Shown piece after piece: positions 2,347-20,951 of a DNA stretch of 64,000 nucleotides; positions within the stretch are counted from its first letter, which is position 1; each line of letters starts with the position of its first letter. Where the stretch lies: positions 186,001 to 250,000 of the forward strand of contig NZ_QGGX01000009.1 of the NCBI RefSeq assembly GCF_003148805.1. Reading direction: 5' to 3'. The stretch comes from Aminobacter sp. AP02. Lineage in GTDB: Bacteria; Pseudomonadota; Alphaproteobacteria; Rhizobiales; Rhizobiaceae. The notes under the pieces were generated by a model. It was not told where the DNA came from. It saw only the letters and a program-made list of their open reading frames with translations, and made no database searches. A program made the position numbers and the translations under genes.

Positions 2347-3639
2347 GTGACCGAACAGATCATAGCGGCCGAGATTGTCGCAAAAGACAACGCCGCGCGT
2401 GAAAGCAATCTCCGCCGCGACTACGACGCGCTGGGCGAGCAGCTCGAGCGGCGCGGCATCAAGATCGACGCCATCCGCGACAAGGTGCAGAATTTTGGTG
2501 TCGCCATCCCGTCCTGGGGTGTGGGCACCGGCGGCACGCGTTTTGCTCGGTTTCCGGGCACTGGCGAGCCGCGCGATATCTTCGACAAGATCGAGGATTG
2601 CGCCATCATCAACGAACTGACCAAGGCGACCCCCACCGTGTCGCTGCATATCCCCTGGGACAAGGCCGACGCCAACAGGCTGAAGCAGGCGGCGAGCCGC
2701 TTCGGTCTCGGCTTCGATGCCATGAACTCCAACACCTTCTCCGACGCCAGGGGCCAGGAGCGTTCCTACAAATACGGTTCACTGTCGCACGCCGACGCCG
2801 GCACCCGCCGGCAAGCGGTCGAGCACAATCTCGAATGCATCGAGATCGGCAAGACGATCGGCTCCAAGGCGCTGACGGTATGGATCGGCGACGGCTCGAA
2901 TTTCCCCGGCCAGGTCAATTTCGCCAAGGCCTTCGAGCGCTATCTTGATTCGATGCGCGAGATTTACGCAGCCTTGCCCGAGGACTGGCGGCTGTTTTCC
3001 GAGCACAAGATGTACGAGCCTGCCTTCTATTCGACTGTCGTGCAGGACTGGGGCACCAACTACATCATCGCTAAGGAGTTGGGGCCGAAGGCGTTCTGCC
3101 TCGTCGACCTCGGCCACCACGCGCCCAACGTCAACATCGAGATGATCGTCTCCCGGCTGATCCAGTTCAAAAAGCTCGGCGGCTTCCATTTCAACGATTC
3201 GAAATATGGCGACGACGACCTCGACGCCGGCTCGATCGACCCATATCGGCTCTTCCTCGTCTTCAATGAGTTGGTCGACGCCGAACTCAACCACGCCGAC
3301 GGCTTCAACCCTGCCCACATGCTCGACCAGAGCCACAACGTCACCGATCCGATCGAGAGCCTGATGCTGTCGGCGGTCGAAGTGCAGCGCGCCTATGCGA
3401 CGGCACTGCTGGTCGACCGGACGGCGCTGGAAGGTTTCCAGGAAACCAATGACGCGCTGATGGCGACCCAGACGCTGAAAACCGCCTACCGCACGGATGT
3501 CGAACCGATCCTTGCCATGGCGCGACTCAGATCAGGCGGCGCCATCGACCCCGTCGCCTCGTACCGCGCGGCGGGCTACCGCTCCAAGGTGGCCGCGGAG
3601 CGTCCGGCAGTGGTGGGCGGCAGCGGCGGCATAGTCTAA
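2347..3639 (+). CDS. rhaI: L-rhamnose isomerase, rhizobial RhaI type
   Basis: A 430-residue sugar isomerase of the xylose-isomerase-like TIM-barrel family, matching the RhaI type used by Pseudomonas stutzeri and rhizobia rather than the E. coli RhaA type. It would convert L-rhamnose to L-rhamnulose in the cytoplasm, one step before phosphorylation and RhaD cleavage. Recognisable segments are the N-terminal SWGVGTGGTRF, the VDLGHHAPN segment in the middle and the FHFNDSKYGDDDLD stretch, which carry the metal-binding acidic and histidine residues. A GGGAGGA Shine-Dalgarno (GGGAGGAATTTGCAGTG) precedes the GTG start. The stop codon overlaps the convergent phosphatase gene: TAA at 3637-3639 shares two bases with the opposite TAG. 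No kinase or transporter gene for rhamnose is in the window. Confidence 0.92.
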   Translation: MTEQIIAAEIVAKDNAARESNLRRDYDALGEQLERRGIKIDAIRDKVQNFGVAIPSWGVGTGGTRFARFPGTGEPRDIFDKIEDCAIINELTKATPTVSLHIPWDKADANRLKQAASRFGLGFDAMNSNTFSDARGQERSYKYGSLSHADAGTRRQAVEHNLECIEIGKTIGSKALTVWIGDGSNFPGQVNFAKAFERYLDSMREIYAALPEDWRLFSEHKMYEPAFYSTVVQDWGTNYIIAKELGPKAFCLVDLGHHAPNVNIEMIVSRLIQFKKLGGFHFNDSKYGDDDLDAGSIDPYRLFLVFNELVDAELNHADGFNPAHMLDQSHNVTDPIESLMLSAVEVQRAYATALLVDRTALEGFQETNDALMATQTLKTAYRTDVEPILAMARLRSGGAIDPVASYRAAGYRSKVAAERPAVVGGSGGIV

Positions 3640-16208: not shown

Positions 16209-16416
16209 ACTGTCACAGAGGGCCGGTCCGAACCGGCTCGCGGCATGTAGCAAATCGTTTCCGGGGAAACAAGCGCCCTGAGCAATATTCGTCCATCATT
16301 CTTGCATGCCCCAGGGGAAGTCCGGCCTTGCGGCGGCAATAGCCGGCTTTCAAAGCCCAGGGACTGGACCTTTCCGTGCCGAGCGGCCATATCAGGTCGA
16401 CGAACGGACCCCCAAA

Positions 16417-17157
16417 ATGACCGAACGCAGCCTGATCGCCACGTCGTTTCTCGCCCTTCCGGGCTCAACTCCGGTCGAATGGCGAATCGAACCCGGCCTG
16501 ACGCCCTATGATCAGGCCCTCGCCTTCATGGAATCACGCGCCGATTCGATTCGACAGGGCACAGCCGATGAGATGGTCTGGCTCGTCGAACACCCGCCGA
16601 TCTACACCGCCGGCACCAGTGCCCAGGAACAGGATCTGGTCGAGCCCGACCGTTTCCCGGTATTCAAGACGGGCCGCGGCGGCGAGTACACCTATCACGG
16701 CCCCGGCCAGCGCGTGGCTTATGTCATGCTCGACCTCAAGCGCAGGCGAGAGGACGTTCGCGCCTTCGTCGCCGCACTCGAAGCCTGGATTATCTCGGCG
16801 CTTGCCGCCTTCAACGTGAAGGGTGAACGCCGTGAAGACCGTGTCGGTGTATGGGTGGTACGTCCTGACCGCCCAGCCCTGCCCGATGGCTCGCCGGCGG
16901 AAGACAAGATCGCAGCCATCGGCATCCGCCTGCGCCGTTGGGTGAGCTTCCACGGCATCGCAATCAATGTGGAACCTGAGCTCGGACATTTCTCCGGTAT
17001 CGTTCCGTGCGGTGTCACCGACCACGGCGTGACCAGCCTCGTCGATCTCGGCCTGCCAGTGACGATGGGCGACGTCGATGTCGCGCTCAAGATCGCCTTT
17101 GAAGAGATATTTGGGCCCGCCGAAGTCGCTTCCGACTCAGTCAGGAAAACAGCCTGA
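16417..17157 (+). CDS. lipB: Octanoyltransferase LipB
   Basis: A 246-residue lipoyl(octanoyl)transferase that moves octanoate from acyl carrier protein to lipoate-dependent enzymes. Conserved blocks visible are [22 protein letters not shown], the lysine segment [18 protein letters not shown] and the catalytic cysteine in [12 protein letters not shown]. The ATG at 16417 is chosen; an upstream ATG at 16306 would add 37 residues with no family match. It has a short insertion ([17 protein letters not shown]) before the active-site lysine, seen in alphaproteobacterial members. It is transcribed away from tRNA-Leu and towards the microprotein gene on the opposite strand. Confidence 0.94.
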
Positions 17158-17310: not shown

Positions 17311-17397
17311 TCAGAGTGCGCCGATCCACATCGCCATGGTGACGAGGAAGGTGCTCATGCAGACCATCGAAATGACATCCTGTACCAGTTCGGTCAT
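17311..17397 (-). CDS. Predicted SOS-controlled 28-residue membrane microprotein
   Basis: An 87-bp open frame encodes a 28-residue peptide with a polar N-terminus (MTELVQD) and then one continuous hydrophobic segment to the C-terminus (residues 8-28, ending MAMWIGAL). An AGGAG Shine-Dalgarno at 17404-17408 sits 6 nt before the ATG. Immediately upstream are three GTTC words in 11-bp register, that is two overlapping alphaproteobacterial LexA boxes, next to a TTGACA -35. A complete small transcription unit is therefore visible: promoter, operator, ribosome site and frame. No homologue can be named from sequence. By size, membrane topology and SOS control it recalls Caulobacter SidA, a 29-residue division inhibitor, but I see no basis to claim sequence homology. 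Confidence 0.62.
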   Translation of the reverse strand: MTELVQDVISMVCMSTFLVTMAMWIGAL

Positions 17398-17419
17398 TTG
17401 TTGCTCCTGTTTTTAATAT

Positions 17420-17445
17420 GTTCTCAATTTGTTCTAATTCTGTTC
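17420..17445 (-). promoter_or_regulatory. Tandem overlapping LexA (SOS) boxes
   Basis: The + strand carries GTTC at 17420, 17431 and 17442, each pair separated by exactly 7 bp, giving two overlapping GTTC-N7-GTTC boxes (GAAC-N7-GAAC on the minus strand). This is the SOS box of alphaproteobacteria. A minus-strand TTGACA (17454-17449) abuts it and the microprotein ATG lies 22 bp downstream, so bound LexA would cover the promoter. Confidence 0.8.
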
Positions 17446-17653
17446 GAATGTCAACGCGCACCATTGCATTCGGGCGCAGGCACCCGCCGTAAGCGATTCG
17501 ACAGTAAATGAACGGTTTATGCCCACGCGAAGGCGCCGCCACCCGTTAAGAAACAGGCACCGACGGCGCTGCGGTCAGATTGAGCTGGATCGTCTGTTCG
17601 CCTGGCCATAGCGGCGGACAGGCGTCGATTGTTGGATCGTATGTCGCACTGAT

Positions 17654-18340
17654 CTAGCGCAGCGGAATGATCTTGCCTTCGGAGAGCGTGACGCGGCGAT
17701 CCATGCGCGCCGCAAGTTCGTGATTATGGGTCGCGATCAACGCTGCCAGGCCGGACTGACGCACCAGAGCCGAGAGCGCGTCGAAGACATAGCCCGCCGT
17801 CACCGGGTCGAGATTGCCGGTTGGCTCGTCGGCGAGCAGGACCAGCGGCGCGTTGGCGACCGCGCGCGCGATCGCCACCCGCTGCTGTTCGCCGCCCGAA
17901 AGCTCCGACGGACGATGCTGGGCGCGCTTGCCGATCTTCATGTAGTCGAGCAGTTGTGCTGCGCGTTCGCTCGCCTGTGCCGGGCTAAGCCCCTTCACCA
18001 GCTGAGGCATCATCACATTCTCCAGCGCGGAGAATTCGGGCAGCAGGTGATGGAACTGGTAGACAAAACCGACGTCGTTGCGGCGGATAGCGGTACGCTC
18101 GTCGTCCGACAGCCGCCCGCAGGCGCGACCATTCAGGAAGACGTCACCTGCATCCGGGCGCTCGAGCAGCCCGGCCGTGTGCAGCAGCGTCGACTTGCCG
18201 GCGCCGGACGGTGCCACCAGCGCCACCATCTCGCCTGCCTTCAGCGCGAAATTGGCATCGTTGAGGATCGTCAGCTTGCGCGATCCCTGCTCATAATGGC
18301 GCTCGACCTTCTTGAGCTCGATAACGGTTTCGATGCCCAT
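17654..18340 (-). CDS. lolD: Lipoprotein-releasing ABC transporter ATP-binding protein LolD
   Basis: A 228-residue MacB/LolD-type ABC ATPase. The Walker A is APSGAGKST near residue 44, the signature is LSGGEQQR, the Walker B is [12 protein letters not shown], and the [12 protein letters not shown]-loop segment is typical of LolD. It would energise release of outer-membrane lipoproteins from the inner membrane. Its ATG overlaps the stop of the permease gene by one base (TAATG), so the two are coupled. Together with proS this forms the minus-strand operon proS-lolE-lolD. The 256 bp downstream of the microprotein start towards lolD hold no other gene. Confidence 0.94.
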
Positions 18341-19626
18341 TATTCGTACCTCAGCGCTTCGACCGGATCGAGCGTTGCCGCCCGCCAGGCCGGAAACAGG
18401 GTCGCCAGGAACGACAGCACCAGCGCCATCAGCACCACCGAGACGGTTTCGCTGACATCCATCTTCGCCGGCAGCTGGGAGAGGAAATAGAGCTCTGGAT
18501 TGAACAGCACGGTGCCTGAGAGCCAGGAAAAGAACTGCCTGATGCGTTCGACATTGAGACAGATCACGACGCCGAGCAGGACGCCGGCGATCGTGCCGGT
18601 CATGCCGATGGCAGCACCGGTCATCAGGAAGATGCGCATCACAGCGCCGCGCGTCGCCCCCATCGTGCGCAGGATGGCGATGTCGTGGCCCTTGTCCTTC
18701 ACCAGCATGATCAGGCCGGAAATGATGTTCAGCGCGGCCACCAGCACGATCAGCGTCAAGATCATGAACATGACGTTGCGCTCGACCTGAAGCGCGGAGA
18801 AGAAGGTCTGGTTGCGCTGGCGCCAGTCGGTCAGGAAAATCGGCCGTTGCGCCGCCTCCTCGACCTTGGTCTTCAGTGCGTCGACGTCGTCGGGATTGTC
18901 GACATAGATCTCGATCGAGCCGACCTTGCCTTCGGAGTTGAAATAAAGCTGCGCCTCGCTGAGCGGCATGAAGACGATGGACGTATCGTATTCGGACATG
19001 CCGACTTCGAAGATGCCGACAATCGGATAGGCTTTGACGCGAGGCGTCATGCCCATTGGCGTCACGTCGCCATCGGGTGAAACCAGCCGGACGGAATCAC
19101 CTAGCACCAGCCCCATGTTCTCGGCCATGCGCCTGCCGATGACCACGCCCTCGGAGCTGTCGAAACCGACGATCGAACCCTGCTTGATGTTGTTGGCGAC
19201 CAGAGTGACCTTGCCGAGGTCGCTGCCCCTGATACCGCGAACAAGCGCGCCGGCGCCTGCGCCGACGTTGCCTTGGGCCAGCACCTGGCCTTCGACAAGC
19301 GGGATCGCGTATTTGACGCCTGATACACCATTGATGCGGTCTGCGACCGCCGCGTAGTCCTCAAGCGGCGTGTCGATGGGCGTGACGATCAGATGGCCGT
19401 TGACGCCGAGAATGCGGGTTAGAAGCTCGGCACGAAAGCCGTTCATTACCGCCATCACCACAATCAGCGTGGCAACGCCCAGCATGATGCCGAGGAACGA
19501 GATCGAAGCGATGACGGAAATCACCGTCTCCTTGCGCTTCGAACGCAGGTAGCGCCACGCTACCATGCGTTCGAACACCGAAAAGGGCCCTGCGCCCGCC
19601 GGTTTCGCCGCCACCACTTGGTTCAT
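18340..19626 (-). CDS. lolE: Lipoprotein-releasing ABC transporter permease (LolC/LolE family)
   Basis: A 428-residue permease. One N-terminal membrane helix ([23 protein letters not shown]) is followed by a large periplasmic MacB-PCD domain (about residues 70-275) and three C-terminal FtsX-type helices. Only one permease gene is present in the operon; the complex may therefore be built on two copies of it, as in the LolF arrangement described for other bacteria, unless a second permease is encoded elsewhere. The start ATG at 19626 overlaps the proS stop by 4 nt. A longer in-frame extension to 19749 lies inside proS and is rejected. Confidence 0.9.
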
Positions 19627-20951
19627 GCCTTGGCGCCCAGTTTGGCCAGTGCCTGCGCGACCGGCAGCGTCTCGCGTTCGCCGGTCTTGCGGTTCTTGAT
19701 CTCGACCTCGCCGGCCGCCGCACCGCGCGGACCCACGATCACCTGCCATGGCAGGCCGATCAAGTCGGCGGTGGCGAATTTGCCACCGGCGCGCTGGTCG
19801 GTGTCGTCATACAGCACGTCCTTGCCGGCAGCTTCGAAGGCTTTGTAGAGCTCGTCGCAGACGCGGTCGCACTCGGCATCGCCGACCTTCATGTTGATCA
19901 GGCCGATGTCGAACGGCGCCACGCCTTCCGGCCAGATGATGCCGTTCTCGTCATGGCTTGCCTCGATGATCGCGGCGATCAGGCGGCTCGGGCCGATGCC
20001 GTAGGAGCCCATCGACACGAAATGTTCCTTGCCGTCGGGACCCATGACCTTGGCGCCCATCGGCTTGGAGTACTTCTCCCCGAAATGGAAGATGTGACCG
20101 ACCTCGATGCCGCGCGCCGACACCTTGTCGGCTTCCGGCACAGCTGCCCATGCGGCCTCGTCATGCATCTCTTCGGTCGCCGCGTAGGGCGTCGTCCACT
20201 TCTTGACGATGCCGTCGATCTCGCCATCATTGGCGAAATCGGTGTCGGCACCCGGCACCGGCAGGCCAAGATAATCGCGATGGCAAAACACCTGGCTTTC
20301 GCCGGTTTCGGCCAGGATGATGAATTCGTGGCTGAGGTCGCCGCCGATCGGGCCGGTGTCGGCACGCATAGGAATCGCCTGCAGGCCCATCCGCGTGAAG
20401 GTACGCAGATAAGAGACAAACATCCTGTTGTAGGCCGCCTTGGCCCCTTCGAAATCGAGATCGAAGGAGTAGGCGTCCTTCATCAGGAACTCGCGGGAGC
20501 GCATCACGCCGAAGCGCGGGCGCACCTCGTCGCGGAATTTCCACTGGATATGGTAGAGGTTGAGCGGCAGGTCCTTGTACGACTTGACGTAGGAGCGGAA
20601 GATTTCCGTGACCATCTCCTCGTTGGTCGGGCCAAACAGCATGTCGCGCTCGTGGCGATCCTTGATGCGCAGCATCTCCTTGCCGTAATCGTCGTAGCGA
20701 CCGCTTTCGCGCCACAGGTCGGCAGACTGGATGGTCGGCATCAGGATTTCGAGCGCCCCGGCCCGGTCCTGCTCCTCGCGCACGATGCGGCAGATCTTGT
20801 CGAGAACGCGCTTGCCCAGCGGCAACCACGAAAAACTGCCTGCAGCCTGCTGCCTGATCATGCCCGCACGCAGCATCAGCCGGTGGGAAATGATATCAGC
20901 CTCACGAGGATTTTCTTTGAGAATGGGCAGGAAATAGCGCGACAGACGCAT
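19623..20951 (-). CDS. proS: Prolyl-tRNA synthetase, short alphaproteobacterial type
   Basis: A 442-residue class II aminoacyl-tRNA synthetase starting [15 protein letters not shown]. Conserved segments are the [22 protein letters not shown] block, motif 2 ([28 protein letters not shown]-like) and motif 3 ([10 protein letters not shown]), followed by an anticodon-binding domain. At this length it lacks the insertion (editing) domain present in the approximately 570-residue E. coli type, which is normal for alphaproteobacteria; a free-standing editing protein would then be expected elsewhere. The alternative ATG at 20963 would add four residues. It leads the proS-lolE-lolD operon. Confidence 0.95.

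Follow-up and report, generated by a model that had tools for sequence, protein, structure and literature searches.

A microprotein gene of 28 codons, lying on the minus strand of the 64,000-nucleotide stretch of DNA analysed here (the window), is, judged from its sequence, a divergent homologue of the Caulobacter division inhibitor SidA that falls outside the family named after it. The explanation that we favour, and consider likely, is that this homologue, most likely an orthologue, would block division at FtsW under the control of LexA. The gene, its promoter elements and its neighbours are listed below; the names lolD (17654..18340) and lolC/E (18340..19749) are our presumption from gene family and context.

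17311..17397, minus strand: 28-codon SidA-like microprotein gene, product MTELVQDVISMVCMSTFLVTMAMWIGAL (ORF reading, pN/pS, fixed length, profile match to SidA)
17404..17408, minus strand: AGGAG, Shine-Dalgarno-like, 6 nt ahead of the ATG (read directly)
17420..17434, minus strand: LexA-type box 2, sharing its middle GAAC with box 1 (motif read; both boxes exact in 10/10 genomes of the genus)
17431..17445, minus strand: LexA-type box 1, GAAC-N7-GAAC, closest to the -35 element (motif read)
17449..17454, minus strand: TTGACA, likely -35 element (read directly)
17654..18340, minus strand: lolD-like gene for an ABC ATPase, directly upstream of the microprotein gene (Pfam ABC_tran)
18340..19749, minus strand: lolC/E-like permease gene (Pfam MacB_PCD and FtsX)
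16306..17157, plus strand: lipB-like gene, convergent (Pfam LplA-B_cat)

The first-pass annotation of this DNA had described an 87-bp minus-strand frame with AGGAG 6 nt upstream, encoding 28 residues, and reading 17397–17311 shows this to be exact: the ATG occupies 17397–17395 and the stop codon ends at 17311. The peptide had also been called hydrophobic from residue 8 onward, and indeed it has no D, E, K or R beyond that residue, while its 19-residue KD value rises to 1.88; in length and hydropathy (hydropathy being all that this comparison uses) it resembles SidA, which has about 29 residues and one membrane helix. None of the 91 related 28-residue peptides has a D, E, K or R beyond residue 8. 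The window holds 199 ORFs of 24–35 aa that start with ATG (nested starts counted), five of which contain a 19-residue stretch with KD of at least 1.6, and a Shine-Dalgarno-like word is also present in one of these five. Chance is excluded by conservation across related loci. These number 95, with 10 from a search of the genus and 85 from a search of the family (three genomes occur in both sets, and the partial matches L011 and L012 of the genus search were left out). The first-pass annotation had proposed looking in relatives for a conserved start, length and synonymous-site bias, and all are present. Specifically, pN/pS is 0.155 within the genus as opposed to 1.22 in frame +1 (45 same-genus pairs), and 0.429 as opposed to 0.93 over 86 distinct loci. 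An ATG followed by exactly 28 codons is found in 89 of the 95 loci; counted from the aligned first residue, 91 loci encode 28 residues, the 89 with ATG among them, and L039 and L064 have GTT and TTG at the aligned start with an ATG slightly upstream. In the genus, all 10 genomes searched have both the 28 codons and two exact boxes. Together, pN/pS and the fixed length rule out a chance ORF; the window ORF is a real gene.

Elements upstream of the gene recur in most relatives as well. A GGAG, AGGA or GAGG word occupies the Shine-Dalgarno position in 90/95 loci. On the plus strand, GTTC-N7-GTTC occurs at 17420–17434 and at 17431–17445, giving the three words in 11-bp register, the two overlapping boxes and the adjacent TTGACA that had been claimed at first sight and that motif reading confirms. 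A single GTTC-N7-GTTC is unremarkable in the window (2 seen, 1.84 expected), and the triple word with one mismatch allowed has 2 matches as opposed to 0.21 expected. The 5.6-Mb genome contains one exact copy of the triple, but also one copy of the pattern written in reverse, and by itself the triple is therefore no proof. Conservation of the LexA boxes across relatives, likewise proposed as a check, is extensive: 85/95 loci have an exact box no more than 75 nt from the start. Among the 91 distinct loci with a full 75 nt upstream, 82 have the box, and mononucleotide shuffles give a mean of 0.3 and a maximum of 2 over 300 rounds; a spacer of 7 is found in these 82 loci and any other spacer from 3 to 13 in 0–5. 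In 43 of the 82 box-bearing loci, TTGAC starts 9 nt ahead of the first box. As for the ten loci outside this pattern, the upstream DNA of L056 stops at a contig end, the boxes of L021 and L059 contain one mismatch, the exact box of L097 is farther up, and L081 and L090 have no box within 200 nt even with one mismatch; L073, L085, L088 and L091 have no exact box, and these loci lie elsewhere. The window genome contains a LexA-type gene. With two exact and conserved boxes the promoter is predicted to be LexA-controlled, and DNA damage very probably switches the microprotein gene on.

The position of the gene is also shared among relatives. A similar lolD-like gene sits beside many related loci by tblastn, with a LolD-type ABC signature upstream in 66/95 and dnaE downstream in 18/95 (the flanks span 1.5–3 kb, some less). 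Among divergent loci that we inspected, the downstream gene opens with the DnaE PHP motif in 9/10, and the part of L104 examined did not show the motif. The window genome has its dnaE at the start of a different contig (G000:C13:395), and lipB occupies the side on which dnaE lies in many relatives; the lolD-sidA-dnaE arrangement is broken here, and the ORF and boxes remain. We also used dnaE as an anchor across the class, where its start was found in 137/143 genomes, and read the DNA upstream of it in 90 of these, 30 as returned by the search and 60 fetched with larger genomes preferred. An exact same-strand box lies within about 1.2 kb of dnaE in 17/90, and in 15 of these cases a short hydrophobic ORF follows the box; at L218, a 29-aa ORF was missed by the hydropathy filter. 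Within 530 nt of dnaE on the same strand, a spacer of 7 occurs in 16/90 and other spacers in 0–3. In the opposite orientation the counts are 8 for a spacer of 7 and 7 for a spacer of 8, so part of the boxes upstream of dnaE may be due to chance or belong to other genes; a short hydrophobic ORF follows three of these eight opposite-orientation boxes, and two of the three were already in the count.

What occupies this slot in Caulobacter? Using as a pointer the MipZ of PDB 2xj4, a structure that we take to be from Caulobacter, we arrived at class family f115, in which the dnaE start was found in 55/60 genomes. Of 30 loci returned, 21 have an exact box and an ORF of 29–31 aa, which is 29 aa long in 19. 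A scan of named genomes gave 20 loci (15 Caulobacter, three Caulobacteraceae or Caulobacterales, one Brevundimonas and one Proteobacteria), and in all 20 the ORF has 29 codons. The dnaE motif follows 50–148 nt beyond the ORF in 19 of them, the remaining locus ending at a contig edge, and an ABC signature is present upstream in 4/20 of these Caulobacterales loci. An exact box lies within 90 nt in just 11/20, so the exact-box test is conservative. The Caulobacter slot ORF scores 59.7 bits against NF033228 over all 29 positions (cut-off 35), and this model matches 19/19 Caulobacteraceae members at E<=10, with the score known for the first alone. By its sequence, the 29-residue ORF in the Caulobacter dnaE slot is SidA. 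Published locus numbers agree with this: dnaE is CC1926 and recN is CC1983 (PMC1839093), recN is ccna_02062 (PMC12700426) and sidA is CCNA_02004 (PMC11034885). Provided that the two numbering systems stay at least as far apart here, sidA lies within about a gene of dnaE.

The named family does not extend to the window gene. NF033228, an NCBIfam equivalog with a cut-off of 35 bits, does not match the window ORF at E<=1, its cut-off is passed in 0/199 same-family genomes, and it matches 0/27 members of profile A2 at E<=10. Its matches at E<=1 in 83/199 same-family genomes were set aside as noise, 7/14 control genomes matching too; one of them (G204:C21) falls on a family locus. We also compared profiles, namely A2, which contains no Caulobacteraceae rows, and the SidA profile A4. 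The two align in register from their first residues, over 20 columns, and, with natural rows only, score 28.8 (probability 93%, E 2.9e-7), while the best of 200 column shuffles scores 14.5. Profile A1 scores 24.2 against A4, with a best shuffle of 15.0; in an earlier profile run the shuffle maxima were 18.8 and 17.9. The E-values of hhalign are rough for one pair, and we relied on the shuffles. Sequences from other orders bridge the two groups: 16 boxed microproteins from outside both the order and Caulobacteraceae, taken as unaltered ORFs and with no picking by sequence, score 27.9 against SidA (shuffles up to 19.3) and 35.1 against A2 (up to 18.8). Profile scores above those of shuffles support a common ancestry with SidA by sequence. 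The match between A2 and SidA covers about the first 20 residues, and the FVWM of SidA is absent from the window ORF. The first-pass annotation had likened the peptide to SidA as a functional analogue in Rhizobiales; the likeness holds, and it goes beyond analogy to homology, because the slot is the same in relatives (lolD, and in many of them dnaE), length and register are nearly identical, the profile match stands above shuffles and there are bridging sequences in other orders. Given the profile match, the slot shared through relatives and the predicted LexA control, the window gene is probably an orthologue of Caulobacter sidA.

To what extent is the gene present in its family? A single-sequence search matches 80/199 same-family genomes (E<=0.01) and profile A2 matches 179/199 (E<=0.05), ten of these 179 matches being weaker than 1e-3; the profile reaches 169/186 good-quality genomes and 100/109 genera of the family, and genomes no larger than 2 Mb account for 8 of its 20 misses. 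Class-wide, this profile at the same threshold matches 21/385 genomes, so that the background is at most about 5%. These class-wide matches are mostly chance: 4 of the 18 loci examined have an exact box just upstream (L125, L126, L127 and L139, with L125 and L127 in the window's own order). Within the family, boxes were read at the 95 related loci. In the order, profile A1 matches 58/297 genomes at a loose cut of E<=0.1. Among loci L103–L124 (n=22), 17 have an exact box just upstream and 16 a LolD match in the fetched stretch. The divergent members in A2 have 26–37 residues; across A2 as a whole, F17 is invariant and D7 is present in at least 90%. A named carrier is Sinorhizobium sp. K101, with MADFVRDLAAFASMSLFIVSISVIALGL and three GAAC words in register. 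A tblastn search of plasmid and phage collections with peptides of 28–32 aa returned no match; this is uninformative, as the plasmid-collection record of Sinorhizobium sp. K101 is itself a member with the triple box. The two "plasmid" records L294 and L295 (PLSDB NZ_CP069303.1 and NZ_CP104131.1) measure 4.6 and 3.5 Mb and contain chromosomal genes of the lipB or lolD type, which suggests chromosomes or chromids that were deposited under the wrong label. In class family f61 (L147, L149, L126) the peptides, of about 44–47 residues, have a longer, basic N-terminus ahead of a conserved W-F-(Q/K)-D-I-A-A-L core, and are still found behind a box and upstream of dnaE. Neither a Pfam nor an NCBIfam model recognises the microprotein, which leaves an annotation gap at a gene that is near-universal in the family.

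Some copies have a different setting. L085 and L091 (each with the matched ORF near 3.0–3.1 kb) and L088 encode second SidA-like peptides of 32–33 residues beginning MRDL..D.., with neither an exact nor a one-mismatch LexA box within 200 nt. At L085 and L091, a gene for a phage-type exonuclease VIII (phrog_412) lies within about 1.1 kb downstream. Bacteriophage lambda Kil is a phage-borne division inhibitor, and these three peptides could be prophage-borne inhibitors of a similar kind. L073 encodes a boxless 28-residue SidA-like peptide on the minus strand near 3035–3120, with a DUF5131/phrog_2045 gene close by, as well as a gene weakly resembling a phage repressor; its genome (G017) also has a lolD/lipB copy, L039.

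How might the window gene act? Under the explanation that we favour, LexA would keep the gene silent until DNA damage, when RecA-stimulated cleavage of LexA would derepress it. The peptide would then insert into the inner membrane and form one helix there; its short N-terminus, in which residue 7 is a conserved D/E, would remain outside the hydrophobic part. This helix would bind FtsW, and perhaps FtsN, and hold the assembled FtsW/FtsI/FtsN complex inactive, such that septation would pause until repair ends. The model is SidA, which is described as an inner-membrane protein of 29 residues with FtsW as an interaction partner; it and DidA are believed to hold FtsW/FtsI/FtsN in an inactive state while leaving divisome assembly undisturbed (PMC4211646). 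Filamentation of a lexA mutant is due to sidA and is cured by removing it (PMC12700426). As a homologue of SidA, the window peptide should act likewise.

There are two main rivals. In one, the gene is a SidA homologue whose target has changed, and it would still halt division during the SOS response, but via another divisome or envelope protein, for example FtsN, FtsI or one of the polar-growth factors of Hyphomicrobiales. The second half of its helix is strongly unlike that of SidA, lacking FVWM, with the match ending near residue 20, and SidA itself also touches FtsN while DidA acts through FtsN (PMC4211646); nothing specific speaks against this idea, which we regard as unlikely. Less likely still is an SOS-induced peptide of the TisB/DinQ type, which would insert into the inner membrane, lower the membrane potential and slow growth without binding the divisome. 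A peptide of this kind would also suit the SOS boxes, the length and the bare helix, and DinQ is a toxic peptide with a single transmembrane segment under SOS regulation (PMC3567139), but the profile homology and the slot shared with SidA argue otherwise, and no NCBIfam or Pfam toxin model reached its cut-off for the window ORF. We rejected as very improbable a leader peptide of an SOS-controlled dnaE transcript, of which the translation and not the product would matter: the ORF does lie between box and dnaE in many relatives, but the window genome has dnaE elsewhere and has kept the ORF and boxes, conservation is much stronger in the amino-acid sequence than in the DNA, and the Caulobacter product SidA is the active part (PMC4211646).

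The homology with SidA has wider implications. SidA is much older and wider than the named family, and the checkpoint looks like an ancient feature of Alphaproteobacteria and not a Caulobacter speciality. We tentatively suggest, with somewhat less than even confidence, that SidA is an ancestral alphaproteobacterial SOS checkpoint in the lolD-dnaE gap, that most Hyphomicrobiales retain it in a form whose sequence has drifted out of reach of family models, and that prophages captured it without LexA control, for Kil-like use. The literature searched contained no description of what stops rhizobia dividing upon DNA damage, and the openly licensed papers searched contained none of the gene. The microprotein offers one conserved and easily testable candidate for this division stop in most genera of the family. 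In addition, its natural variation, from about 26 to 47 residues across orders, could be used to map the silencing of FtsW by a bare transmembrane helix.

Several known systems resemble this gene to different degrees. DinQ and TisB of Escherichia coli are, like the window peptide, SOS-controlled single transmembrane peptides. They act on the membrane itself. YneA, SosA and DivS/ChiZ are SOS-induced membrane division inhibitors of Gram-positive bacteria. They have the same kind of job, that of a small SOS membrane protein stopping septation, but are different, larger proteins, likened here by description alone. The genes yneA, divS and chiZ are unrelated (PMC4211646), and YneA is reported to interact with FtsW (PMC13396833). 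SEP6 of Sinorhizobium meliloti is, like the window peptide, shorter than 30 aa, with a predicted transmembrane helix and conservation in Hyphomicrobiales, and is found mainly in the P100 fraction (PMC10117765). As a lead, SEP6 may be the counterpart of the window gene, already seen translated and membrane-associated (PMC10117765), in a paper whose main text does not contain the words SidA, SOS or lolD. The closest system is SidA of Caulobacter crescentus (CCNA_02004; NF033228 div_inhib_SidA). The two differ at residues 6–7, which are QD in the window ORF and RE in SidA, and in that the window gene adjoins lipB whereas SidA adjoins dnaE. Both are one-helix microproteins of 28–29 residues behind GAAC-N7-GAAC boxes, with their N-terminal halves in the same register, and SidA shares with the family of the window gene the slot upstream of dnaE, beside lolD elsewhere.
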